Source of the DNA: Peribacillus frigoritolerans
GTDB taxonomy: Bacteria > Bacillota > Bacilli > Bacillales > DSM-1321
Assembly: GCF_040250305.1 (NCBI RefSeq)
Contig: NZ_CP158190.1
Location: 2,760,001-2,824,000, forward strand
Reading direction: 5' to 3'
DNA: 64,000 nt
Position numbers and translations under genes: made by a program. The first letter of the stretch is position 1; the number at the start of each line of letters is the position of its first letter. Positions 38,511-51,091 of the stretch are shown in pieces. Below the pieces are notes generated by a model. That model did no database searches and was not told the DNA's origin. It saw nothing but the letters and a program-made list of their open reading frames with translations.

Positions 38511-40607
38511 CTATTGCCGAATTATCGATTTCTCTAATATTTCTACGACATCCAACGTTTGTACTTTTTCCTCCACTTCCTTTGTCTTTGTCCCATCGCT
38601 GATCATCGTTAAGCAGTATGGACAACCTGTACTGATGATGGTTGGATTTGTTTTTAGAAGCTGTTCGGTTCTTGAAACATTGATACGGATTCCTGTATCT
38701 TCCTCCATCCACATTAGACCTCCTCCAGCACCGCAACACATAGCTGTTTCACGTTTCCGCTCAGGTTCTACAACCAAAACACCTGGAATAGCTTTTAAAA
38801 TGTCACGAGGAGCATCATACCCATCATTGTAGCGTCCTAAATAGCAGGAATCATGGTAAGTAATGACTTCATTCACAGTATTCTTTGGTGTTAACTTTCC
38901 TTCTTTTATTAATGTTGCAAGCAATTCCGTATGATGATAAACTTTTGCTTCTAAACCAAATTCAGGGTATTCATTGTTTAGTGTGTTATACGCATGGGGA
39001 TCTATTGTGACAATTTTCTTCACATCATACTTTTTAAAGACTTCAATATTAGCATTCACTAGTTCTTGGAATAAAAACTCATTTCCAAGACGTCGAGGTG
39101 TATCACCAGAGTTCTTTTCTTCATTCCCTAGTATCGCCATCTTCACTCCCGCATGATGCATTAAGCGCGTGAAGGATTTTGTGATTTTTTGACTGCGGTT
39201 ATCATAAGAACCCATGGACCCGACAAAGAAAAGAAAATCAAATTCTTCTCCCGCTTTTTTCAGTTCTTTTGCTGTTGGAATCGTGATTTTCTCTAATTCA
39301 TCACGCCAATTCGCCCGTTCCTTACGATTCATCCCCCATGGATTTCCTTGACGTTCAATATTCGTCATCGCACGTTGGGCATCCGGATTTATTTTTCCTT
39401 CTGTTAGGACAAGGTAACGGCGTAAGTCGATGATTTTGTCAACATGCTCATTCATTACAGGACATTGATCCTCACAGTTACGGCAAGTCGTACACGCCCA
39501 AATTTCTTCTTCTGTCACGACATCCCCTATTAAACTAACTTTTTCGATTGTTGCTGCTACTTCTTTGGAACCTGCCCCCGCTAGCGCTAATTGATTGTCC
39601 TTAGTATTTTTTATAACAAAGGAAGGCGCCCACGGCTGTCTGGAGGTTACCGCTTCTCCTTTTTCTGTCAAATGTTTTCTCATCTTGACAATGAGATCCA
39701 TCGGGGATAACATTTTTCCAGTTCCTGAAGCAGGGCACATATTTGTGCATCGTCCGCATTCTACACATGCGTAAAGATCAATCAACTGATGTTGGGTAAA
39801 ATCCTCAATTTTCCCGACACCGAATTCTTCAGCTGTTTCATCCTCAAAATCGATTTTCCTCAATTTTCCAACAGGGCCACTTTTCTTAAAGAAGATATTA
39901 ACCATGGCAAATAACTCATGAAATTGCTTTGACTGTGGTACAAACACCAGAAAGGAGAATACCGTCAACATATGAACCCACCAAAATACGTAGTACAACA
40001 CAGTTCCTGCCGTTGTTCCGATGCCGGAAAACATCAACGCAATGGCACCAGAGAATGGAGCATATATGAGATCTGGTTCATGACTTAGCATAATCGCTTC
40101 AAATCCCAATGTAAGCAGGATCGACAAAGTTAGAATGAATAAGGCGATAATGACGAAGGCCGATTTCCCATCACGCTTCCATTGCAACCGCTTAAGTTTT
40201 TCAATATAACGACGGTAAAATGCATATACTACTGCCAACATCATGAGGAACGTAGCCCATTCCTGTAGAAGAATGAAATATTTATGCGCTTCACCTAAGG
40301 GAAATTCATAACTTTTAATAAATCCCTTTATGATTAGTTCTATAAGTCCTATTTGGATGATAAAAAAGCCATAAAATAATACTAAATGCATCATACCGCT
40401 TTTCTTGTCTTTGAATAATTTTGACTGGCCGAAGCCGTTGATTAATAGCAGATTGATTCGTTCTTTAAGGTTTAGTTCAAACTCAGCTTTTTTGCCAAGC
40501 TTTATAAACAAATACCGGGTGTATACAAGATTGACAAACAAATATACTGCATATCCAGCCAAGGCTAGAAAAGCAAGTAAATTCAGCAATGATAACATCC
40601 TTTTCAT
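38511..40607 (-). CDS. fadF: Iron-sulphur membrane oxidoreductase FadF (YwjF)
   Basis: A 698-residue membrane protein proposed to accept electrons from acyl-CoA dehydrogenases (through ETF) into the quinone pool. The first 240 residues hold about six transmembrane segments, with histidines that could bind haem (as in the nitrate reductase gamma fold). Two [4Fe-4S] motifs follow: CVECGRCTNMCPASG near 280 and CTTCRNCEDQCPV near 375. The C-terminus has HdrD-type CCG domains (THDSCYLGRY...AMCCGAGGG and STGCPYCLTM). Next to the alicyclic acyl-CoA operon it could re-oxidise the flavins of AliB and the second dehydrogenase. ATG at 40607 follows GAGGGGATG. Confidence 0.9.
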   Translation of the reverse strand: MKRMLSLLNLLAFLALAGYAVYLFVNLVYTRYLFIKLGKKAEFELNLKERINLLLINGFGQSKLFKDKKSGMMHLVLFYGFFIIQIGLIELIIKGFIKSYEFPLGEAHKYFILLQEWATFLMMLAVVYAFYRRYIEKLKRLQWKRDGKSAFVIIALFILTLSILLTLGFEAIMLSHEPDLIYAPFSGAIALMFSGIGTTAGTVLYYVFWWVHMLTVFSFLVFVPQSKQFHELFAMVNIFFKKSGPVGKLRKIDFEDETAEEFGVGKIEDFTQHQLIDLYACVECGRCTNMCPASGTGKMLSPMDLIVKMRKHLTEKGEAVTSRQPWAPSFVIKNTKDNQLALAGAGSKEVAATIEKVSLIGDVVTEEEIWACTTCRNCEDQCPVMNEHVDKIIDLRRYLVLTEGKINPDAQRAMTNIERQGNPWGMNRKERANWRDELEKITIPTAKELKKAGEEFDFLFFVGSMGSYDNRSQKITKSFTRLMHHAGVKMAILGNEEKNSGDTPRRLGNEFLFQELVNANIEVFKKYDVKKIVTIDPHAYNTLNNEYPEFGLEAKVYHHTELLATLIKEGKLTPKNTVNEVITYHDSCYLGRYNDGYDAPRDILKAIPGVLVVEPERKRETAMCCGAGGGLMWMEEDTGIRINVSRTEQLLKTNPTIISTGCPYCLTMISDGTKTKEVEEKVQTLDVVEILEKSIIRQ

Positions 40608-40954: not shown

Positions 40955-41707
40955 TTATCCTAACATACTATGCCCACCGTTTATCGAAATCACTTGTCCG
41001 GTAATCCAATCTGCTGAATCAGATAATAGAAATAAAACCATTCCCTTCACATCATCCGCTTTACCAATTCTATTTAAAGGATATTGCTTTATAACCTTTT
41101 CAAGTTCTACTTCACTAAAGCCTAATTCTCCTTGGTCAATTAATCCTAACGACACTGTGTTACATTGCACATTATTTCTACCAACATCAATAGCCAATGA
41201 CTTTAAAAAACTGATCGCCCCACTCCTAGCAGCGGCTGAAACAATTAAATTCCGATCACCAGTCCTTGCTGAATCACCTACGATATTGATAAACTTACCT
41301 TGATTCTTGCCTATCATTTCAGGCATAAATGTATGAACGAGATTTAACACCCCGTAAAAACAAATATCTACTTCCCGTATCCATTCTTCCGGTTCATATT
41401 TAAAGAACGATTTCACTTGTGCCCAGCCAGCATTGTTTACAATAAAATTTACGCTTCCTAGTTCGTGATCAAGTGTTTCTTTCATCTGCTTGACATCTTT
41501 CAATCTTGCAATATCTCCTTTAATAAGGGCCACTTTCACACCATAATCACTAATTTCCTTTGCAACTTGTAATGCCGCCTCTTCAGATTCACGATAGTGC
41601 AATCCAATATTTGCTCCTTCAGCAGCAGCAGCTAATGCTATTCCTCTTCCGATTCCTTTTGCGGCGCCTGTAATTAGGATGTTTTTTCCTTTGAAACCGA
41701 TATCCAT
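40955..41707 (-). CDS. Short-chain dehydrogenase/reductase lacking the catalytic Tyr/Lys
   Basis: A 250-residue protein with the Rossmann fold of SDRs: ITGAAKGIGRGIALAAA near residue 11, the NNAG motif in VNNAGWAQVKSF, and the tail WITGQVISINGGHSMLG. It is close to the badH product by layout. The catalytic YxxxK reads SAAAR (around residue 157), with serine and arginine in place of tyrosine and lysine, so normal alcohol oxidation is unlikely. It may act by a different residue, or on a CoA-linked enol, or be decaying. It ends the alicyclic operon. ATG at 41707 follows GGAGGTAAC. Confidence 0.82.
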   Translation of the reverse strand: MDIGFKGKNILITGAAKGIGRGIALAAAAEGANIGLHYRESEEAALQVAKEISDYGVKVALIKGDIARLKDVKQMKETLDHELGSVNFIVNNAGWAQVKSFFKYEPEEWIREVDICFYGVLNLVHTFMPEMIGKNQGKFINIVGDSARTGDRNLIVSAAARSGAISFLKSLAIDVGRNNVQCNTVSLGLIDQGELGFSEVELEKVIKQYPLNRIGKADDVKGMVLFLLSDSADWITGQVISINGGHSMLG

Positions 41708-41769
41708 CTAGTTACCTCCATGTAAATACAGAAAATTCAGAATAATCATCATGCAATTTGATTAAATTA

Positions 41770-42549
41770 TTAACTTCCTGTAAACGATGCTTCTCTTTTT
41801 TCGAGAAAAGCCTGTGTTCCTTCCCTCTTGTCACTCGTTCCATATAAAACAGCTTGTGCCAAGCTTTCAATCAGCAATCCCGTATCCATATCCACATCAA
41901 ATCCACGATTGACTACTAGCTTTGCCATTTGTACGGATAATGGTCCTTTAGCTAATATTTTTTCAGCCTTTTCTTGTACAGCAGTCCGTAAATTCTCTAA
42001 AGGAACGACAGATGACACTAAACCGATCTCTTTCGCCTCTTTCGCTGTCATGAGATCCCCACTTAATATCATATTCATGGCTCTGCCTTTACCGATGATT
42101 CGCGCTAATCGCTGCGTTCCACCAGCGCCGGGAATAACCGACAAATTTAATTCAGGGAGCCCGATTTTAGCATTTTCAGAAGCCATTCGTATATCACACG
42201 ACATGGCCAGCTCACACCCACCTCCAAGTGCAAATCCATTAATGGCTGCAATAGTTGCTTTCTTACTTTTTTCTATACAGCGATACACATCAGACATATT
42301 TTTAGCAGCAAATGCATCAAGAGAGTTCCTGTTTGTTACCTGATTAATATCCGCTCCTGCGGCAAATGACTTCTCCCCTGCACCTGTAAATACAATTACG
42401 CCAATATCTTGATCATTTTCTAATTCTTCAAATGCTGACAGGATTTCGGATACAGTTAAATCATTTAACGCATTTCGCACTTCAGGACGGTTAATGGTGA
42501 TAAAACCTATCCGGTCAACTCTTTCAAGCACAATATTTTGATAGTTCAC
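41770..42549 (-). CDS. Enoyl-CoA hydratase (BadK-like)
   Basis: A 259-residue crotonase-family enzyme. The oxyanion loop is SFAAGADINQVT (about 64-75). The catalytic glutamates are in GGGCELAMSCD and in PELNLSVIPGAGGTQR. It is likely to hydrate cyclohex-1-ene-1-carboxyl-CoA to 2-hydroxycyclohexanecarboxyl-CoA in this operon, though fatty enoyl-CoA is an alternative. It overlaps nothing and lies 14 bp after the acyl-CoA dehydrogenase gene. ATG at 42549 follows GGGGGAG. Confidence 0.85.
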   Translation of the reverse strand: MNYQNIVLERVDRIGFITINRPEVRNALNDLTVSEILSAFEELENDQDIGVIVFTGAGEKSFAAGADINQVTNRNSLDAFAAKNMSDVYRCIEKSKKATIAAINGFALGGGCELAMSCDIRMASENAKIGLPELNLSVIPGAGGTQRLARIIGKGRAMNMILSGDLMTAKEAKEIGLVSSVVPLENLRTAVQEKAEKILAKGPLSVQMAKLVVNRGFDVDMDTGLLIESLAQAVLYGTSDKREGTQAFLEKREASFTGS

Positions 42550-42563
42550 TTATAACTCCCCCT

Positions 42564-43712
42564 TTATTGATATTTGCGATGCAACTGAGCAGCAATAATA
42601 TTCTTCTGAATCTCAGAGGTTCCTTCGTAAATTCTTGTAATTCGGGCATCACGGTAAAATCTTTCAATTGGGTATTCTGATATATAACCAATTCCCCCAT
42701 GAATTTGTACAGCTTTATCTGCAACCCGATTATACGTTTCAGAACCTAATAATTTAACCATGGCTGCTTCTTTAATCACTTTCATATTTTGATCCACCAT
42801 CCATGCTATTCTGTAGGTCATAGACCGCAATGCTTCTATTTCCATTGCCATATCTGCCAAATAATGTTGAATAATTTGTTGCTCGAAAATCGGCTTTCCA
42901 AACTGGATTCTCATATGAGAAAAATCTAACGACATTTCGAGTAATTTATCACTTGATCCTAAGTTTCGCGCAGCCATTCCTGCACGTCCATTTGCCAGAA
43001 TCTTTAATGCGTTTACATAGCCTTGTCCCTCTTCGCCTAAAACATTTTCAGCCGGAACTTCACAATCTTCTAAGAATATTTCCGATGAATGTGACCCGTG
43101 AAGGCCCATTTTTTTTTCAATGCTTCCAATTTGAAACCCTGGGAAATCCTTTTCAATTATAAAAGAAGTGATGCCTTTTGAGCCTTTAGAAGGGTCGGTC
43201 ACCGCCATTACGGTAAAAATATCGGCAATCGGTGCGTTAGTAATATAATGCTTACTTCCATTCAGAATATATTTATCCCCTTTTTTTACGGCCGTTGTTT
43301 TCAGATTAGTAGCATGTGAGCCTGCACTTGGTTCTGTTAAGGCAAATGCACCAATTCTATCTCCGGTTGCCATGTCGGGTAAATATTTGCGTCTTTGTTC
43401 ATCATTTCCCATTTCAACAATGCCGACACCCCCAATGCCGGTATGCCCACCAATGACTGTTGTATATCCATTATGTGTTCTTCCCAATTCTTCAAGTGCA
43501 GCACACTTCCCTACCATATCGAGTCCCAGTCCGCCATATTCTTCTGGAATATGAAGTCCAAATAATCCCATTTGCTTTGATTTTTCCATTATACTTCCTG
43601 GAATTTCATTACTTTCTTCAATTAACATCGCCTGCGGATCTACTTCATTATCAATAAAGTTCCGAATTCCTTGTTTTAATAATTTTACATCCTCAGTTAG
43701 TTCGAAATTCAT
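42564..43712 (-). CDS. Acyl-CoA dehydrogenase (second of the operon)
   Basis: A 382-residue FAD enzyme of the short/medium-chain type. Signatures are AFALTEPSAGSHATNLKTTA, the LGSSDKLLEMS region, GGIGYISEYPIERFYRDARI and the C-terminal RIYEGTSEIQKNIIAAQLH with the classic catalytic glutamate (unlike aliB, which has Asp there). It could dehydrogenate cyclohexanecarboxyl-CoA or pimeloyl-CoA. Upstream are fragments of decayed genes (43740-44150). ATG at 43712 follows AGAGGACGTGAAGG. Confidence 0.88.
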   Translation of the reverse strand: MNFELTEDVKLLKQGIRNFIDNEVDPQAMLIEESNEIPGSIMEKSKQMGLFGLHIPEEYGGLGLDMVGKCAALEELGRTHNGYTTVIGGHTGIGGVGIVEMGNDEQRRKYLPDMATGDRIGAFALTEPSAGSHATNLKTTAVKKGDKYILNGSKHYITNAPIADIFTVMAVTDPSKGSKGITSFIIEKDFPGFQIGSIEKKMGLHGSHSSEIFLEDCEVPAENVLGEEGQGYVNALKILANGRAGMAARNLGSSDKLLEMSLDFSHMRIQFGKPIFEQQIIQHYLADMAMEIEALRSMTYRIAWMVDQNMKVIKEAAMVKLLGSETYNRVADKAVQIHGGIGYISEYPIERFYRDARITRIYEGTSEIQKNIIAAQLHRKYQ

Positions 43713-43739
43713 ACCTTCACGTCCTCTCGATTATAAGGC

Positions 43740-44150
43740 TAAAATCACTGCCCAGACTTCCTGACCAAACGCTGCTTTCACGTATTTAACAAGCTAATGC
43801 TTATAGTCGATACCTATCCCCTAAACTGTGAAAAAGATACTCCATATTTTGGAGACGGCTGTCTAAACCAACAAGTCCAGCCATTTCCAGGGGACCTATA
43901 GGATGATTTAACCAAGTTTAATCGCTATATCGATATCTTCAGCAAAATCACTTCATTATTCTCGTACTTCTTGATATATGATCGATCAACTACCGCTTGA
44001 ATAACCTTTGCTGCTAGGTAGTCTACTGACACATCAGTTAAAGTACCACCCATTTTCCAATCGGCGCTCTGACTGAATATACCGGATTCATGATCTTCCT
44101 CCATATGATAAAACTTTTATCCTGGTTTAGCCCCAATAAGCAAAAATAGT
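43740..44150 (-). pseudogene. Remnants of a 3-hydroxyacyl-CoA dehydrogenase and a neighbouring gene
   Basis: The minus strand reads EDIDIAIKLG, then after a one-base shift LNHPIGPLEMAGLVGLDSRL, QNMEYLFHSLGDRYRL and a stop (about 43801-43935). This matches the C-terminal dimerisation domain of 3-hydroxyacyl-CoA dehydrogenases. An upstream piece (MGGTLTDVSVDYLAAKVIQA) and a downstream tail (VKAAFGQEVWAVILAL) are from genes I did not recognise. There is no start or complete frame. A beta-oxidation gene has been lost from the middle of the operon. Confidence 0.7.
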
Positions 44151-44257
44151 ATTGAAAATTCATTCGTGTTATTTGCCTGTAGAGGTTTTCTATTGATATT
44201 GATACAAGGCATTTTTGAAATGTTAATTGTAAAAAGACCTATACCTCTAGAAAGCTA

Positions 44258-45004
44258 TTAACACATCGCTAATCCACCATTAACGGAGAGCGTTTGTCCT
44301 GTAATATAATCTGCTTCCTCTGAAGTGAAAAACGCTACCGCATTTGCAAGATCACTTGGTTCTGCCAATCGCCTGAATGGTATGGCTTTTTCTAACGCTG
44401 AAACAATGCCCTCATTATACGAGCCAATTTCCTGAATCAATGGTGTATTACTTGGGCCTGGTGAAATACAATTGACATTTAATTTATGTCTCGCCATTTC
44501 TCTAGCTAATGTTTTTGTTAAAGCAATCACCCCGCCTTTTGCGGCTGAATATACTCCTTCACCACTAGAACCGACTCTTCCTGAATCTGAAGCGATATTC
44601 ACAACTTTCCCATAACCATTCTCAATCATGATCGGCAATATTTCTTTACATGTATGAATTTGACCCATCAAATTAATGTCAATAATTGTTTTCCATGTGC
44701 TTGGTTCGCTTTTTAAGAAAGGTTCAATCTTATCCCATCCTGCGTTATTCACCAAAATATCAATTCGTCCAAAACAATCAATAGATGCTTTGACTGCTTC
44801 ATGTACGCTTTCTAACTTCGTGACGTCGCAATAGACAGCAAGTGCTTCCGCCCCTTCGCTTTCTAAAATAGAAACCGTTTCTCGAGCATTTTCAATGTTG
44901 ATGTCTGTAACGATTATTTTATTGGACTTTGACGCTAATGTTAACGCGATCTCTTTTCCAATCCCTCTACCTGCACCGGTAATAAATGCTACTCGTTGAC
45001 TCAT
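44258..45004 (-). CDS. badH: 2-hydroxycyclohexanecarboxyl-CoA dehydrogenase (BadH-like SDR)
   Basis: A 248-residue SDR that would oxidise 2-hydroxycyclohexanecarboxyl-CoA to the 2-keto compound with NAD+. NAD motif ITGAGRGIGKEIA from residue 7; NNAGWDKIEPFLKSEPSTW is near-identical in pattern to R. palustris BadH; the catalytic set is intact, with ASDSGRVGSSGEGVYSAAKG containing Ser and YxxxK. The tail ITGQTLSVNGGLAM also fits. ATG at 45004 was chosen because GGGAGG is 7 bases before it; two upstream ATG codons in frame are less well placed. It lies 52 bp after aliA. Confidence 0.87.
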   Translation of the reverse strand: MSQRVAFITGAGRGIGKEIALTLASKSNKIIVTDINIENARETVSILESEGAEALAVYCDVTKLESVHEAVKASIDCFGRIDILVNNAGWDKIEPFLKSEPSTWKTIIDINLMGQIHTCKEILPIMIENGYGKVVNIASDSGRVGSSGEGVYSAAKGGVIALTKTLAREMARHKLNVNCISPGPSNTPLIQEIGSYNEGIVSALEKAIPFRRLAEPSDLANAVAFFTSEEADYITGQTLSVNGGLAMC

Positions 45005-45056
45005 CATTTTTCCTCCCGACTTATTCAATTTTGGTTCATTTCTGTCAATATCTTGT

Positions 45057-46694
45057 TTAAATCTTTTCTTTTAACTTCTCGTCCATCATTTTCCGGAGAT
45101 GGAATTTCTGAATTTTCCCACTCATTGTACGAGGGAAATCCTCGAAAATTTCGAGATGTTCTGGCCAATATTGTTTTGCGATCCCTTTTTCTGAAAGGAA
45201 TTCCTTCATGGTTTCCATTGTCAATTGCGTTTTCCCTGGTTTCATGGTGATGCATGCACATGCTTTTTCTTGAAGACGCGGATCCGGAACGGCAACAATT
45301 TGGGCATCAGATATATCTGGATGCTCATACAGGACATTTTCGATATACATGACGGGAATATTTTCCCCACCACGGATGATGATATCTTTACTCCGTCCAC
45401 AAATTCGGATATAACCATCTTCATCCATCGCTGCACGGTCACCTGTCATAAACCAGCCCTCATGATATTCCGAAAGGGTTTCCTGTAATCGTTTTAAGTA
45501 GCCAACAAACAAGGAGGGACCTCTTGCAAGCAAATCGCCTTCTTCATGTGGTTCACAAATTTCCCCTTTTCTATCAACTACTTTTAACTCCATACCTGGA
45601 AAAGGAATACCATCCGTTTCAATCAGCTTTTCTTCTGGATCTTCAATTCTTGTCAAAGTGACCAAGCCATCTTCGGTTTGTCCCCAGCCAGACAAAATTT
45701 TAATGGACGTTTTTTCGGTCGCCTCTTTTACCAAATTTCGTGGTATCGGAGCTCCTAATGCAACAAAGATACGAAGTGAATCAATCTTGTAATGATCAAG
45801 ATTCTTAAGTTGAACTGTATCTTGCAGGAATGGTGTAGCACCAGCTGTAAATGTAATATTCTCCTTTTCTATCAAATTAAGAAATTCACTTGGATTCCAA
45901 ATATCCTGGTAAACCCCTGTTCCACCAATATGTGTCGGCAACCTCACGCCATAACCGAATCCAGTTTGATGGGCAAATGTCGACGCCATGAACATGATAT
46001 CATCAGATGTTAAGCGTAAGCGATCAATCCAATAATTCGTGGAAACACAGAGCGTATTATGTGTATGCATCACTCCCTTTGGATTTCCAGTCGTTCCAGA
46101 CGTAAAGATTATTTCCGTCACGTCATTCGGATCATGGGTGATTTTGTCTAGAATAGCAGGATCTTTTCTCTCTTCCCACGGTTGATCAATCAATTCAGAA
46201 AACGGTTTCATTTCTTTTGGTACGTTATCCCCAACCACATAAACATGTTGCATACTTGGCCACTGATGTTTTAACCTTTCAATCATCGCCGGGTAATCAA
46301 ACCCACGAAATTCACCTGGAACAACAATCATTTTCGACTCTGCCATGCCGACCGTGTAGCCAATTTCCCGGTCACGGTAAATCGGAATGAGAGGATTGCT
46401 AATGGCACCAATTTTTGTTACCGCATAATGCAGAATAATGAACTCGCTCCAATTAGGCAGTTGGAACGAGATGACATCTCTTTTTTCTATACCAATTTCA
46501 AGCAGGCCTAATGCCACCCGATCCACAAGTTTACCAAGCTCCCTATACGTATAGCGGCTCTTTTTATCAATTATGGCCATTTTCTCTGGATCTTTTGCTA
46601 TTGCATCATTTAAATAATCGATAATCGTTCTATTTGGCCAAATAGATTGATATTTTTCGATATACTCCTGACTCAAGATCGTTTCCAATTTCAC
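45057..46694 (-). CDS. aliA: Cyclohexanecarboxylate-CoA ligase (AMP-forming, AliA-like)
   Basis: A 545-residue acyl-adenylate ligase that would activate cyclohexanecarboxylate with ATP and CoA. Motifs are the AMP-binding P-loop EIIFTSGTTGNPKGVMHTHN near residue 190, SGWGQTEDG near 335, the A8 segment EGWFMTGDRAAMDEDGYIRI near 415 and the C-terminal catalytic lysine in TMSGKIQKFHLR near 525. The specific acid is inferred from the neighbours; medium-chain fatty acid is an alternative. It lies 17 bp after badI. ATG at 46694 follows AGGGGGCTAG. Confidence 0.86.
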   Translation of the reverse strand: MKLETILSQEYIEKYQSIWPNRTIIDYLNDAIAKDPEKMAIIDKKSRYTYRELGKLVDRVALGLLEIGIEKRDVISFQLPNWSEFIILHYAVTKIGAISNPLIPIYRDREIGYTVGMAESKMIVVPGEFRGFDYPAMIERLKHQWPSMQHVYVVGDNVPKEMKPFSELIDQPWEERKDPAILDKITHDPNDVTEIIFTSGTTGNPKGVMHTHNTLCVSTNYWIDRLRLTSDDIMFMASTFAHQTGFGYGVRLPTHIGGTGVYQDIWNPSEFLNLIEKENITFTAGATPFLQDTVQLKNLDHYKIDSLRIFVALGAPIPRNLVKEATEKTSIKILSGWGQTEDGLVTLTRIEDPEEKLIETDGIPFPGMELKVVDRKGEICEPHEEGDLLARGPSLFVGYLKRLQETLSEYHEGWFMTGDRAAMDEDGYIRICGRSKDIIIRGGENIPVMYIENVLYEHPDISDAQIVAVPDPRLQEKACACITMKPGKTQLTMETMKEFLSEKGIAKQYWPEHLEIFEDFPRTMSGKIQKFHLRKMMDEKLKEKI

Positions 46695-46711
46695 AGCATC
46701 TAGCCCCCTCT

Positions 46712-47554
46712 TTATCTTCGGAACTTTTTAAAGTCTACTGGTCTTTTTTCAAGAAAAGCATTTTTTCCTTCTTCTGATTCTGCTGTGTTATAAAACATCG
46801 CTAAACTACCCATCGATAACTGTGAAATCCCTTGGATGTTGGCACTATCCGCATTAAATGAGTATTTAAGCATTTTAAGTGCAGTCGGACTTTTTTCGAG
46901 AATTTTTCCAGCCCATTCTTCTGCTGCTTGCTGCAATTGTTCAGCAGGAACGATTTTATTGACTAGACCCATTTCTTTTGCTTCATGTGCCGTATATTGT
47001 TCACATAAATACCAGATCTCCCTTGCTTTCTTTTCCCCAACAACCCTTGCTAGATAGGCAGAACCAAATCCAGCATCATAGCTGCCTACTTTCGGTCCGC
47101 TTTGTCCAAACTTTGCTGATTCTGAAGCAATAGTCAAATCGCAAATCACATGCAAGACATGTCCACCGCCAATCGCAAATCCATTAACAGCAGCAATAAC
47201 TGGCTTCGGTATATTGCGAATCGTTTGATGTAATGTTTCAATTTCTAAGCCCATTCCACCGCCTAAACCTCCAGAATAATCGTATCCACCTTCATCTCCT
47301 TTTTCTTTTTGATCCCCACCGACACAAAATGCCTTTTCTCCTGCTCCAGTTAAGACAACCACACCAATTCGGTTATCGTCCCATGCATCACGGAACGACC
47401 AAATTAACTCTTTAATCGTTCTTCCCCGAAATGCATTATAAACGTTCGGTCGATTGATCGTAATCTTTGCAATTCCATTGCTTTTTTTGTAGATAACATC
47501 TGTCAATTTGCCAATTCCATCTGTTTTTTCAGATAGAGTATCTGTTTGTTTCAT
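46712..47554 (-). CDS. badI: 2-ketocyclohexanecarboxyl-CoA hydrolase (BadI-like)
   Basis: A 280-residue crotonase-family ring-opening hydrolase that would convert 2-ketocyclohexanecarboxyl-CoA plus water to pimeloyl-CoA. It belongs with MenB/BadI rather than ordinary hydratases. The signs are [15 protein letters not shown], the [20 protein letters not shown] region, [20 protein letters not shown] (the conserved Asp/Tyr stretch) and [17 protein letters not shown]. The hydratase glutamates are replaced, as in BadI. MenB itself is excluded by the operon context, with aliA, aliB and badH. ATG at 47554 follows GGAGGG; an in-frame ATG upstream lacks a site. Confidence 0.86.
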
Positions 47555-47571
47555 TTTGAATCCCTCCATTA

Positions 47572-47700
47572 TTAAAGTAGTTTAAGAATAATTTTTCCTT
47601 TAATGACCTCATCACCCTGTTCATTTATGCAGCGAACCTTTTCCATGATCCACTTTTTTACAATAAACTCCATTTTTTACTTCAGCCCTTGTAAATTTCC
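47572..47700 (-). pseudogene. Remnant of a MaoC-like (hotdog) gene
   Basis: Between aliB and badI the minus strand reads KKWIMEKVRCINEQGDEVIK then GKIILKLL and a stop at 47572. It closely resembles the C-terminus of the intact MaoC-like protein at 50660-51091 ([19 protein letters not shown]). Frame breaks lie upstream. It is a duplicate that has decayed. Confidence 0.65.
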
Positions 47701-47761
47701 TTTTTAGTCTTTGGAAGATAGAATTGCAATCTATTGTTTTTATCAAATAGGCGGCCCTAGA

Positions 47762-48916
47762 TTAATAGGAACGGAATTCTTTTCCAATGATATCTTTTGC
47801 AATGACCATTTGATTAGCTTGTGCTGTTCCATCACCAATTTCTAGGCCAATTACATCACGCAAACGTTGCTCATGCGGCATCTCTTTCGTATAAGCATAA
47901 TGTCCATTTAACAATAAACATTCATGAATTGCATCCGCACTATATTTTGGTCCTAACCATTTGACAGATGCTGATTCCTTTGAGTGATTTAACCCTTGAT
48001 CACGAAGCCAGAGACCCCTATATGCCTGCCACTTTATTAGTTCTAATTGGGTAAAGTGCGTAACGATTGGAAATGATACCCCTTGGTAGGTTGCTAAAGG
48101 TTTGCCAAAAGAATGTCTCATTTTCACGTGTTCGATCGTCTCGTCTAAACTTTGGCTTGCAGCACCCACACATTGCAATCCGATTAACAACCGACTTAAA
48201 TCAAATCCATTCATCACTTGAGAGAAACCTTTATTTTCCATACCGATTAAGTTTTCTTCGGGTACTTTAACTTCATTTAAATAAACAGATCCCCTGCCTA
48301 TTGGAATATTCCCCATATCCTCATATGCTTTACATTCAACACCGGGAAGATCTGCTGGAATGATAAATGCACTAATTCCTCTGTTCCCTAGTTCAGGATT
48401 TGTTTTTGCAAAGGTAAGAAATGCATCACCAACAGTCGCAACGCTAATTCCAGATTTTTCTCCATTCAGAACATACACGCCGTCTTTATGTACTGCTGTT
48501 GTCTTTATTCCTCCAGCATCAGTACCTGCCGATGGTTCAGTTATAGCAATACCGACAATTTTTTCACCACTTGCAATTTTTGGAAGCCATTCTTGCTTAA
48601 GCTCTTCACGTGCATGATTATTGATAATTTCTCCAATTAATCCATTCAACATAACAGAATAGGTAAGGTTGAAATCACCTCTTCCAATTTCTTCGGCAGC
48701 TATTCCAGTTGTCACGCAATCTGCACCGGTTCCCCCATACTCTTCCGGAATTCGAAGACCATTGACACCTAACTCACCAAGCTTCTTCCATAAATGCCTT
48801 GGCGTAATCCCCTCTCTGTCCCACTTTGTATAATTAGGAAGCAGCTCCTCCTTTGCAAATTCTTTTAGCATCTTTCGAAAATAATCCTGTTCTTCTGTAA
48901 ATGAAAAGTTTAACAA
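47762..48916 (-). CDS. aliB: Acyl-CoA dehydrogenase, cyclohexanecarboxyl-CoA type (AliB-like)
   Basis: A 384-residue FAD dehydrogenase, first gene of the alicyclic operon. It has FSFTEEQDYFRKMLKEFAKE, GIAITEPSAGTDAGGIKTTA, RGSVYLNEVKVPEENLIG and FDLSRLLIGLQCVGAASQSL. At the place of the usual catalytic glutamate (IYEGTSE) it has EIGDGTAQ, an aspartate, a difference reported for some alicyclic acyl-CoA dehydrogenases. The start is TTG at 48916 (LNFSFTEE), because GGGAGG precedes it by 8 bases. The sigma-54 promoter lies 29 bp upstream. Likely reaction: cyclohexanecarboxyl-CoA to cyclohex-1-ene-1-carboxyl-CoA. Confidence 0.85.
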   Translation of the reverse strand: MLNFSFTEEQDYFRKMLKEFAKEELLPNYTKWDREGITPRHLWKKLGELGVNGLRIPEEYGGTGADCVTTGIAAEEIGRGDFNLTYSVMLNGLIGEIINNHAREELKQEWLPKIASGEKIVGIAITEPSAGTDAGGIKTTAVHKDGVYVLNGEKSGISVATVGDAFLTFAKTNPELGNRGISAFIIPADLPGVECKAYEDMGNIPIGRGSVYLNEVKVPEENLIGMENKGFSQVMNGFDLSRLLIGLQCVGAASQSLDETIEHVKMRHSFGKPLATYQGVSFPIVTHFTQLELIKWQAYRGLWLRDQGLNHSKESASVKWLGPKYSADAIHECLLLNGHYAYTKEMPHEQRLRDVIGLEIGDGTAQANQMVIAKDIIGKEFRSY

Positions 48917-48944
48917 TGTAATTCCTCCCTTTACTTTTATTATT

Positions 48945-48959
48945 GCAAGTTTCGTGCCA
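48945..48959 (-). promoter_or_regulatory. Sigma-54 promoter of the alicyclic operon
   Basis: On the minus strand TGGCAC (48954-48959), 5 bases, then TTGC (48945-48948) and further AT matches the -24/-12 consensus TGGCAC-N5-TTGC perfectly. The inferred start is near 48935, just before the aliB ribosome site. The adjacent gene encodes a sigma-54 enhancer-binding protein, which supports function. Confidence 0.88.
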
Positions 48960-49000
48960 ACTTGTTTCCCTGGAAAAATAGCATTCCTTCCTGGTTCGAA

Positions 49001-49047
49001 TTCGCAAAAGTGATATCGTTCGCAAATTTGCGAAGTACATTTGCGAA
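49001..49047 (-). promoter_or_regulatory. Upstream activator site with TTCGCAAA elements
   Basis: A perfect 16-bp palindrome TTCGCAAATTTGCGAA (49019-49034) is flanked by two more half-sites, TTCGCAAA (49001-49008) and TTTGCGAA (49040-49047). The whole array is symmetric and centred about 90 bp upstream of the sigma-54 start, the normal place for an enhancer-binding protein. Confidence 0.72.
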
Positions 49048-49343
49048 AAGATACCAACAAGCACAAAAAAGAAGGTAACGTGACACTTCTATCATTATTA
49101 AGTTTTCATATCCCTCCACCCTTAGTAATTTAGAACATTCAGACATTTGCAGATTGTAAAAGCAAACTATTTATGGTCATAACTACAACCACAAAAGACT
49201 GTCCCATAAGACTCAAACCGATCACAAAAAAATGAAAAGAACCGTTACGAAATCCTTTGATTTTACTGGATTTCATACCAGGTCCTTTCAGGAGAATGAA
49301 TAACGCATGTGTTTTTTATACCGTTTGCATCCTCTTAAACGTA
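49048..49343. other. Intergenic stretch, aliB promoter to activator gene
   Basis: About 300 bp between the activator site and the stop of the enhancer-binding protein gene. No gene or terminator was clearly seen. Confidence 0.5.
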
Positions 49344-50654
49344 TTATTTTAGATTGTACTTTGCAATTTTACGGTAAAGGCTAGCAATATGTATTTTTAG
49401 TTTTTGTGCAGCCAAAGTTCGGTCACCATTCGCTTCTTGTAATGCACGTTGAATTGCGTTGATTTCCGTGCACTTTACTTCCTCTTCTAAACTTTGAATG
49501 GGAGTCGGCGTTCTTTTTATTACATCTGAAGACACATTAGGTGAAATGTGTAAATCGTCTATCGTGAGAGTATCTCCCAAGACCAAATTCATTCCGCGTT
49601 CAATATAGGCTTTTAATTCACGTACATTACCAGGCCACTCATAACTTAATAACCTCTCTTGTAGCTTAGAATCGATGAATTTTACGTGAACACCCAATTT
49701 CTCATTAAAATATTCGATGAAAAAGAGGGCTAATGGAATAATATCCTCTTTTCTTTGCCGAAGTGAAGGAATTTTCAAATCAAAGACGTATAATCGATAA
49801 AATAAATCTTGCCTGAACTTCCCTTCCTGAACAAGTGTTCTCAAATCCCGGTTCGTTGCAGCGATAATCCGAATATCGACATTTTTACTCCCTGTTCCAC
49901 CGAGTCGTTCCACTTCTCTTTCCTGTAATACACGAAGAAGTTTTCCTTGCGCTTGGTAGGGGAGTTCTGATATTTCATCCAGAAAAAGAGTACCATGCTG
50001 GGCCATCTCGATTTTCCCTGGTTTGCCTTCCTTTTTCGCACCACTGAACGCTCCTGGCTCATATCCGAAAACTTCCGATTCAAATAATTCATCGGGGATA
50101 GCAGCACAATTCACCGCCACAAAAGGATTATTTTTTCTCGTGCTTAATCCGTGTATCGCTTGAGCAAACAATTCCTTCCCTGTTCCGCTTTCTCCCGTCA
50201 ATAAAACAGTAGAATTACTTGTTGCGATACGGGCTGCCAACTCTTTAATCTCCTCAATCGCCGAACCTTTACCGATAATCTCTTCAAAACTATATCGATT
50301 CTGACCTGTTGACTTTTTCTTCCTTTTTAAGATATCCAGAGAATTCATAAACGAAGCCATTTCATAATGATTAACATCTTCTTGACGGACAATCACCCGA
50401 TAAATCTTATGTTCTTTCATTTTCATTACTCTAATTAAACATGAATAGCCAAAAACGACTCCAAATAATACCTTCGCATGCTTACGGTAATGGGTTCCTT
50501 GGATAACTTCCTTTGCATAAGCTCCTAACCAGTCTTTTTTATCAATCAGAAAATTTTCACAAAAATCCGAACTAATATCGATCAATAATCCGCCCTCATC
50601 AACTTCAATAAAGCCCCAGTCTTCGGTTTGGTCTATCAGATTAAGTTTCTTCAT
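49344..50654 (-). CDS. PAS-type sigma-54 enhancer-binding activator
   Basis: A 436-residue activator. Residues 1-110 form a PAS-like sensor ([20 protein letters not shown]). The AAA+ domain has Walker A GESGTGKE (154-161), the sigma-54 loop GAFSGA (201-206, canonical GAFTGA) and Walker B GTLFLDEI (221-228). A Fis-type helix-turn-helix ends the protein ([20 protein letters not shown]). It very probably binds the TTCGCAAA sites and turns on the aliB promoter in response to an alicyclic or CoA-linked signal. ATG at 50654, 5 bp after the MaoC stop, has AGGTGATC before it, so it is cotranscribed with that gene. Confidence 0.9.
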
Positions 50655-50659
50655 TTTGA

Positions 50660-51091
50660 TCACCTATCCATTTTCTCATTGGATAAAACAAAAATGACAA
50701 CTTGTCCTTTGATTACTTCATTACCAGCCTGATTGTAACAGGTAACCTTTTGGGTAACCCAGTTCCTCTTTAAATTTAAATCAATAATCTCCAACTCCAC
50801 AGTAATAACGTCTCCTACATACACGGGATGATAAAAAACCAATTCCTTTTGTAGCAAAATACAGGCACTTCCAGGGAGTTTTTCACTAATGACTTGAGTA
50901 ATTAACCCTTCTGTCAACAAGCCCGGCACAATTGGTTGACTATAGTAACTTTTCCATATATCTTCATTCAGTCCGTATACTGGGCTATAGTCTCTAGTTA
51001 ATTCCTTGCAAAATCTTACGTCCTGTTCAGTAAATGTTCGCTGCAAACGCGCAATTTGTCCTGTAAACAACTCCGTAATTGTATAACTCAC
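50660..51091 (-). CDS. MaoC-like hotdog dehydratase
   Basis: A 143-residue hotdog-fold protein of the MaoC/(R)-specific enoyl-CoA hydratase group. It has the family stretches [20 protein letters not shown], the [20 protein letters not shown] helix and [17 protein letters not shown]. The usual Asp-x4-His dyad (D-x4-H) is changed, with D in [13 protein letters not shown] and no clear His, so activity is uncertain. It starts at GTG (51091) after GAGGGAGGG and is followed by the activator gene. It may bind or hydrate a CoA intermediate of the pathway, possibly giving the signal to the activator (inference). Confidence 0.75.

Follow-up and report, generated by a model that had tools for sequence, protein, structure and literature searches.

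A candidate sigma-54-driven operon for ring opening of alicyclic acids in Peribacillus frigoritolerans

The window analyzed here is a 64,000-nucleotide stretch of the Peribacillus frigoritolerans genome (assembly GCF_040250305.1, contig NZ_CP158190.1, positions 2,760,001 to 2,824,000), a genome that consists of a single 5.6 Mb contig. Positions 40955-51091 of the window hold nine genes, all on the minus strand and every one an intact open reading frame (Table 1). We read them as a sigma-54-driven operon for the coenzyme A (CoA)-dependent, oxygen-independent ring opening of a cyclohexanecarboxylate-type acid, and give this reading a probability of about 0.68. The locus is real and conserved, its four core genes recurring in dozens of related species, and it represents a branch of the bad-ali type in Bacillota that has its own specific regulation. 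An earlier note, made from the letters of the window, had named genes resembling aliB, badI, aliA, and badH, followed by a second acyl-CoA dehydrogenase and a hydratase, and all six are there as intact reading frames.

In the route that we infer, from substrate and reactions to electron transfer and inducer, AliA would form the CoA thioester of the ring acid and AliB would desaturate it to the cyclohex-1-ene ester. Water would be added by the enoyl-CoA hydratase encoded at 41770-42549 or by another crotonase of the genome, BadH would oxidize the resulting 2-hydroxy ester to the 2-keto ester, and BadI would hydrolyze the ring to give pimeloyl-CoA. The electrons from AliB would pass via electron-transfer flavoprotein (ETF) to a membrane iron-sulfur (Fe-S) protein and on to menaquinone. 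The second dehydrogenase and the hydratase would start the beta-oxidation of pimeloyl-CoA. In the presence of the acid or of its CoA ester, a PAS-like activator would bind the palindrome TTCGCAAATTTGCGAA and open the RpoN promoter before aliB.

AliB, AliA, and BadH and the spread of the locus

Three of the four core proteins match their namesake NCBIfam models best. AliB reaches 391 bits with TIGR03207 (next-best family, 278), AliA 558 bits with TIGR03208 (next-best, 492), and BadH 273 bits with TIGR03206 (next-best, 237). Within the genome, they are outliers as well. The AliA model gives 558 bits here against 291 for the next of 26 matches, the BadH model 273 against 177 among 50 matches, and the AliB model 391 against 249, with 4 of the genome's 24 candidates scored. 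As a proteobacterial yardstick, we used a plasmid-borne cluster of Marinobacter salarius, in which aliB is annotated, together with other Proteobacteria, instead of the Rhodopseudomonas palustris proteins. The Marinobacter cluster scores 602 (AliB), 727 (AliA), 351 (BadH), and 457 bits (BadI), and only its AliB lies above the equivalog cut-off, so these cut-offs are tight.

Phylogenetic analysis points in the same direction. In a tree built from rows selected at no less than 43% identity, 39 Bacillota and 9 proteobacterial BadH proteins share one branch (SH-like approximate likelihood ratio test, 99) against 17 short-chain dehydrogenases/reductases (SDRs) from the genome of the window. The BadH protein thus groups with BadH and differs from the other SDRs of the genome; the earlier note had set it apart, by motifs, from ordinary fatty-acid enzymes. 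In the AliB tree, a single branch (100) unites 80 AliB-type rows and sets them apart from 11 other acyl-CoA dehydrogenases, and 42 Bacillota rows are grouped within the tree (98). A GDGT motif is present in 100 of 104 AliB-type rows (duplicates included), at a place where 25 of 26 rows of the second-dehydrogenase family have YEGT. The AliB superclade also takes in 27 rows whose non-Bacillota loci had been classed as free of the bad set; two of the 27 (Rokubacteria) have a BadI-like neighbor. Since AliB types occur without the bad set, AliB alone does not name the substrate. On plasmid 2 of Polaromonas sp. JS666 (L066, 12010-13176), an AliB-type dehydrogenase lies beside carboxyltransferase, biotin carboxylase, and HMG-CoA lyase genes; judging from these neighbors, other branched acids are probably also degraded with the help of AliB types.

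AliB occurs at 78% identity or more in 14 of 35 same-genus genomes, its own included. The order maoC-like gene, activator, aliB, badI, aliA, badH is found in all 13 of the other genomes in this set. Among the 26 other genomes in the same comparison, one has AliB at 63%, and the rest stand near 36% among the matches listed. Across 398 genomes of the phylum, two AliB outliers were found at 391 and 473 bits, with the next protein at 268. When named genomes were scanned, 402 stretches matched and 372 of them encode a relative; the best 80 were kept, and 46 of the 80 belong to Bacillota. The carriers include Peribacillus, Priestia abyssalis, Niallia, Cytobacillus, Oceanobacillus, Lentibacillus, Lysinibacillus, Psychrobacillus, Neobacillus, Mesobacillus, and Geomicrobium, and, more distantly, Brevibacillus, Alicyclobacillus, and Thermincola. 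After these were pooled with the loci from the other genomes searched and 10 duplicates were removed, 49 Bacillota AliB rows had enough flank for comparison, the window itself being left out. In 40 of the 49, badI, aliA, and badH lie near aliB. The nine other rows comprise four second aliB copies that neighbor genes for the membrane Fe-S protein, a thiolase, and a dehydrogenase (L103, L104, L108, and L111), a Brevibacillus gene that is in two pieces and counts as two rows (L143), two with other ligases or distances (L064 and L065), and one without a called badH (L115).

The same chemistry and regulation might instead act on another natural ring acid, such as a cyclohexanecarboxylate with alkyl substituents, a perillate-like monoterpene acid, or a cyclopentanecarboxylate, with unsubstituted cyclohexanecarboxylate as a side substrate at most. 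We regard this as a serious, if minority, possibility. Identity to the Marinobacter counterparts is 46% for AliB, 46% for AliA, 39% for BadH, and 63% for BadI, which leaves room for a shifted pocket, and the A-loop of Bacillota BadI differs from that of the proteobacterial proteins. In addition, passages of a published survey suggest a role in monoterpene degradation for badKHI without aliAB in Aromatoleum (PMC9795900). In the window, however, aliA and aliB travel with badI and badH, as they do in the clusters that the same passages tie to cyclohexanecarboxylate (PMC9795900).

BadI and its relation to MenB

The closest named protein to the badI product is from Peribacillus sp. (99% identity), and its closest solved relatives are MenB enzymes (2iex). 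In a comparison with 249 genomes of the order, 201 match it at E < 1e-90; 9 of the 249 do so at 75-100% identity, and the rest at 61% or less among the matches listed. A second MenB-type protein, which carries the usual MenB residues, is encoded elsewhere in the genome. Its gene is flanked by MenH- and MenE-like frames, as judged by eye, and a ligase-family match falls at that place. The earlier note had set BadI apart from ordinary fatty-acid enzymes, and the badI product does differ from this other MenB-type protein.

To describe the difference, distinct rows of 53 Bacillota BadI, 20 proteobacterial BadI, and 23 MenB proteins were compared using the numbering of E. coli MenB. Both types share the equivalents of the oxyanion hole, Asp-163, Ser-161, Tyr-97, and Tyr-258, and all 53 Bacillota BadI rows keep those of Gly-86, Gly-133, Tyr-97, Ser-161, Asp-163, and Tyr-258. 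Leu-109 of MenB is replaced by Glu in 73/73 BadI rows, and three further BadI-like rows (Alicyclobacillus and two Rokubacteria) have Glu once and Asp twice. Thr-254 is replaced by Leu in 53/53 Bacillota and 19/20 proteobacterial rows, and both Leu-109 and Thr-254 are replaced in 76/76 BadI-like rows. The position of Arg-91 is Lys in 49 of the 53 Bacillota rows and Arg in 4, as well as Arg in the three further rows. In passages of a study of E. coli MenB, Leu-109 is part of a hydrophobic patch that packs on the aromatic ring, and Arg-91 is called strictly conserved (PMC3637252). The BadI residues would suit a ring hydrolase that uses a related mechanism on a non-aromatic ring.

In a tree of 75 rows, MenB, proteobacterial BadI, and Bacillota BadI form three separate groups, and rooting with two hydratases results in a three-way fork. 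A tree of 38 rows rooted with seven other crotonases supports MenB (100/100), proteobacterial BadI (98/99), and Bacillota BadI (93/79), and places the badI product outside the MenB clade. A single BadI clade of Bacillota and Proteobacteria is not rejected (approximately unbiased test, p-AU 0.37). The BadI type may thus be ancestral, or else Bacillota BadI may have arisen beside MenB. Among the public records listed, BadI-like Bacillaceae proteins bear the NCBI names DHNA-CoA (1,4-dihydroxy-2-naphthoyl-CoA) or naphthoate synthase, and a single JGI label (P0108, Geobacillus thermodenitrificans) indicates BadI.

Sigma-54 control and the MaoC-like gene

Bacillus species possess sigma-54 catabolic activators, among them BkdR, AcoR, and RocR, which have an AAA+ domain and a Fis-type helix-turn-helix (HTH) and serve the RpoN promoter of a catabolic operon. 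The activator in the window would differ from these in having its own presumed operator, TTCGCAAATTTGCGAA, and alicyclic-acid target genes. A Pfam search of its N-terminus gave no PAS match. Its predicted model has a mean predicted local distance difference test (pLDDT) score of 60.5, moderate at the N-terminus and poor elsewhere, and from this model the N-terminus appears PAS-like.

The promoter TGGCACGAAACTTGCA is the sole zero-mismatch sigma-54 match in the window. The likeliest start of aliB is the TTG at 48916, which is preceded by a ribosome-site-like stretch and lies 28 bases past TGGCACGAAACTTGCA. At up to two mismatches, the window contains 27 matches versus 26.8 expected by chance, so the weight of the promoter rests on its exactness, place, and conservation. 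Genome-wide, the pattern finds 40 sites versus 7 for a reversed control. RpoN is present as two full-length genes above the family cut-off (G000:C1:597823-599145 and 5191653-5192942). Activator and promoter occur together in 35 of the 40 flank-complete four-gene loci. These pairs consist of 31 found by script, two with the promoter inside an over-long frame (L122 and L125), and two with the activator 7-8 kb upstream (L134 and L135). In the examined stretches of L099, L119, L121, L132, and L144, neither was found, and the activator may lie elsewhere in those genomes. None of 38 non-Bacillota AliB rows has an upstream sigma-54 site with fewer than two mismatches, and composition shuffles give a site with at most one mismatch in 0.4% of upstream stretches.

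Upstream of the promoter, the half sites TTCGCA and TGCGAA occupy near-fixed positions relative to the -24 box, at about -88, -75, -65, and -47. At least one is present in 41 of 45 promoter-bearing rows and both kinds are present in 27, compared with 0 of 2250 shuffles with both kinds; the promoter and half-site counts come from related species and reflect shared history rather than independent trials. The pattern TTYGCAANNTTGCRAA has a single match in the genome, which is the window palindrome. The reversed control matched two per strand, so exact matching of the operator has little power genome-wide, and the weight of the operator rests on its position and conservation. The earlier note had pointed to a sigma-54 promoter and its activator next to the operon, and both promoter and upstream site are conserved across genera. 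Predicted control of the operon by sigma-54 and the adjacent activator is thus supported.

Several second aliB operons carry a sigma-54 promoter of their own (L103, L104, L107, L108, and L111). They adjoin genes for the membrane Fe-S protein, thiolase, 3-hydroxyacyl-CoA dehydrogenase, and second dehydrogenase, and in Bacillus sp. V3B both aliB operons lie on one contig (L109 and L111). In Brevibacillus massiliensis, where aliB is in two pieces, a sigma-54 activator frame (L143:8089-9972) includes an N-terminal piece of an AMP-binding (acyl-CoA ligase) domain.

The gene for a MaoC-like protein lies next to the activator gene in 34 of the 35 loci that have an activator; in L131 it was not found. 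In the window, the two genes share 4 bases at the activator start, and the gap ranges from -101 to 58 bases in the 46 loci measured (duplicates included). Even in L064, a rearranged locus of another family whose neighboring ligase is 32% identical to the window AliA, the MaoC-like gene still adjoins the activator. The Thermincola and Brevibacillus loci yielded no MaoC-like gene. The predicted model (pLDDT 90) has the fold of the (R)-specific enoyl-CoA hydratase PhaJ (1iq6, TM score 0.86), and the best solved relatives are (R)-enoyl-CoA hydratases. In contrast to PhaJ, 49 of 50 distinct rows have Tyr, and one has Asp, at what is presumably the place of the catalytic His of an Asp/His pair; the Asp of the pair is kept in 47 of 50. 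Because His occurs in no row, we doubt that the protein is an active hydratase. Tentatively, and with a good deal less than even confidence, the MaoC-like protein may be an acyl-CoA sensor rather than an enzyme, which would gate the sigma-54 activator upon binding the ring acid's CoA ester or the enoyl product of that ester. If so, Bacillaceae would have a two-protein acyl-CoA switch for alicyclic acids.

As a simple replacement for BadK, the MaoC-like protein was demoted to a rival explanation, the catalytic His being present in no row. That it is a true hydratase, with BadK replaced by an unrelated fold, is improbable. The place of its gene as the most constant neighbor of the activator, its fold and solved relatives, the second copy after aliB in 11 loci, and the presence of a crotonase-type hydratase (Ech) within 9.5 kb downstream in only 12 of 40 loci favor the idea. 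The substitution at the presumed catalytic His, the Thermincola locus with no MaoC-like gene found, and the normal hydratase in the window and in other loci speak against it.

Lost genes, counterevidence, and known systems

The operon in the window is incomplete, with its lower part trimmed, and in this respect it is not the complete unit of the earlier note. Only a 43-residue piece of a thiolase and a 35-residue piece of a 3-hydroxyacyl-CoA dehydrogenase remain in the 545 bases between badH and the second dehydrogenase gene, and 28 residues of a second maoC-like gene remain between aliB and badI. Bacillus sp. DNRA2 (L101) and Priestia abyssalis (L099) carry intact genes for a thiolase and a 3-hydroxyacyl-CoA dehydrogenase after badH. 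Each of the two is found near the cluster in 8 of 40 loci; most relatives are without them. Because both are lost here, other enzymes of the genome would have to stand in for them. Since their remnants adjoin the second dehydrogenase and hydratase genes, these two probably belong to a former block for pimeloyl-CoA beta-oxidation. The earlier note had rightly seen both genes and had taken the hydratase for a BadK; beta-oxidation fits the pair at least as well, whether in place of the BadK role or besides it. The hydratase is 41% identical to the Marinobacter BadK candidate and retains both glutamates at what are presumably the hydratase Glu positions, and could still serve the BadK step.

Table 1. 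Features of the locus in the window.
Feature	Position	Strand	Remarks
MaoC-like gene, hot-dog fold	50660..51091	-	PhaJ-type fold, Tyr at presumed catalytic His position
Sigma-54-dependent activator	49344..50663	-	AAA+ sigma-54 domain, Fis-type HTH, predicted PAS-like N-terminus
Palindrome TTCGCAAATTTGCGAA, presumed activator site	49019..49034	none	Half sites also at 49042-49047 and 49001-49006
Sigma-54 promoter TGGCACGAAACTTGCA (-24/-12)	48944..48959	-	0 mismatches
aliB-like, cyclohexanecarboxyl-CoA dehydrogenase	47762..48916	-	Probable TTG start at 48916
Second maoC-like gene, remnant	47575..47658	-	Last 28 residues; intact directly after aliB in 11 other loci
badI-like, 2-ketocyclohexanecarboxyl-CoA hydrolase	46712..47569	-	Start 47569 or 47554
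aliA-like acyl-CoA ligase	45057..46694	-	Family model, genome-wide outlier
badH-like, 2-hydroxycyclohexanecarboxyl-CoA dehydrogenase	44258..45028	-	Start 45028 or 45007
Thiolase gene remnant	43943..44071	-	Residues 11-53 of intact L099 relative, 58% identity
3-Hydroxyacyl-CoA dehydrogenase gene remnant	43807..43911	-	Residues 222-256 of intact L099 relative, 80% identity
Second acyl-CoA dehydrogenase	42564..43712	-	IYEGT motif, ordinary type; probably pimeloyl-CoA beta-oxidation
Enoyl-CoA hydratase	41770..42549	-	Both presumed hydratase Glu positions; BadK and/or beta-oxidation step
SDR-family gene, accessory	40955..41707	-	Ser and Arg replace catalytic Tyr and Lys
Membrane Fe-S/CCG protein	38511..40607	-	Putative ETF:menaquinone oxidoreductase

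Several observations weigh against the interpretation as a ring-opening operon. AliB, AliA, BadH, and BadI all fall under their NCBIfam equivalog cut-offs (575, 792, 431, and 468, respectively), and the Marinobacter BadI, AliA, and BadH lie nearer to these than the window proteins do. MenB models give the badI product higher scores than the BadI model does: it reaches 370 with NF005637 (MenB; cut-off 380) and misses the cut-off of 467.6 for TIGR03210 (BadI) with 347, and it passes the TIGR01929 menB cut-off (359 versus 342.7), which Marinobacter BadI, likewise under its TIGR03210 cut-off, does not. The best rooted tree joins Bacillota BadI to MenB (89/90), although not significantly, so the grouping check proposed in the earlier note came out cleanly for BadH and less so for BadI. 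Some loci that lack the bad set encode AliB-type proteins as well, in one case beside carboxylase genes. Four second aliB copies (L103, L104, L108, and L111) have the promoter without a neighboring activator, and the Brevibacillus locus (L143), outside the 40 loci, has two activator-like frames and no such promoter. Lastly, because it has lost genes, the locus may be decaying. The menB scores, the NCBI names, and the lean of the rooted tree would also suit a misreading of menaquinone and fatty-acid genes, with badI as a second menB and the rest serving branched-chain acyl-CoA oxidation, which is highly improbable given the separate MenB-type gene with its usual residues, the place of the badI product outside the MenB clade, the replacement of Leu-109 and Thr-254 in every BadI-like row, and the outlier scores and co-occurrence of AliA, AliB, and BadH.

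The bad-ali route has already been surveyed in Proteobacteria and Actinobacteria, with MarR-type regulators in Gram-negatives and TetR-type regulators in Gram-positives (PMC9795900). As in R. palustris and Aromatoleum sp. CIB (PMC9795900), homologs of AliA, AliB, BadH, and BadI occur together here, and the window locus would likewise encode a CoA-dependent, oxygen-independent ring opening to pimeloyl-CoA. The Gram-negative clusters use the MarR-type BadR, a repressor in strain CIB (PMC9795900), whereas the window has a sigma-54 activator. The locus further differs from them in its own upstream site, its MaoC-like partner gene, proteins under the equivalog cut-offs, and the lack of a clear badK orthologue. 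The actinobacterial systems of Rhodococcus and Corynebacterium share a Gram-positive carrier with the window and differ in phylum and in their TetR-type regulator; some of their clusters lack a badK orthologue, which is not universal (PMC9795900). These two genera are the Gram-positives in the legend of Fig. 6 of the survey, which names no Bacillota (PMC9795900). Thus, the route is not new to Gram-positives, as the earlier note might have led one to expect; for Bacillota, and for sigma-54 control, our literature search, conducted mostly at the level of abstracts, found no bad-ali case. If the present reading holds, alicyclic acids, which are models of naphthenic acids, would undergo oxygen-independent ring cleavage in many different Bacillaceae as well, a catabolic enzyme would prove to be hidden under the public name MenB, and one pathway would gain a further regulatory solution, sigma-54 activation with a predicted operator.

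Two neighboring genes and one distant locus complete the description. A homolog of the membrane Fe-S/CCG protein adjoins the second aliB operons in relatives. The accessory SDR at 40955-41707 has Ser and Arg at the Tyr and Lys positions of BadH in 24 of 24 aligned rows (window and relatives), and looks like a conserved, non-catalytic member of its family. Alicyclobacillus is a genus known for omega-alicyclic fatty acids, and in Alicyclobacillus herbarius (L144) aliA-, aliB-, badH-, and badI-like genes occur without the sigma-54 promoter.

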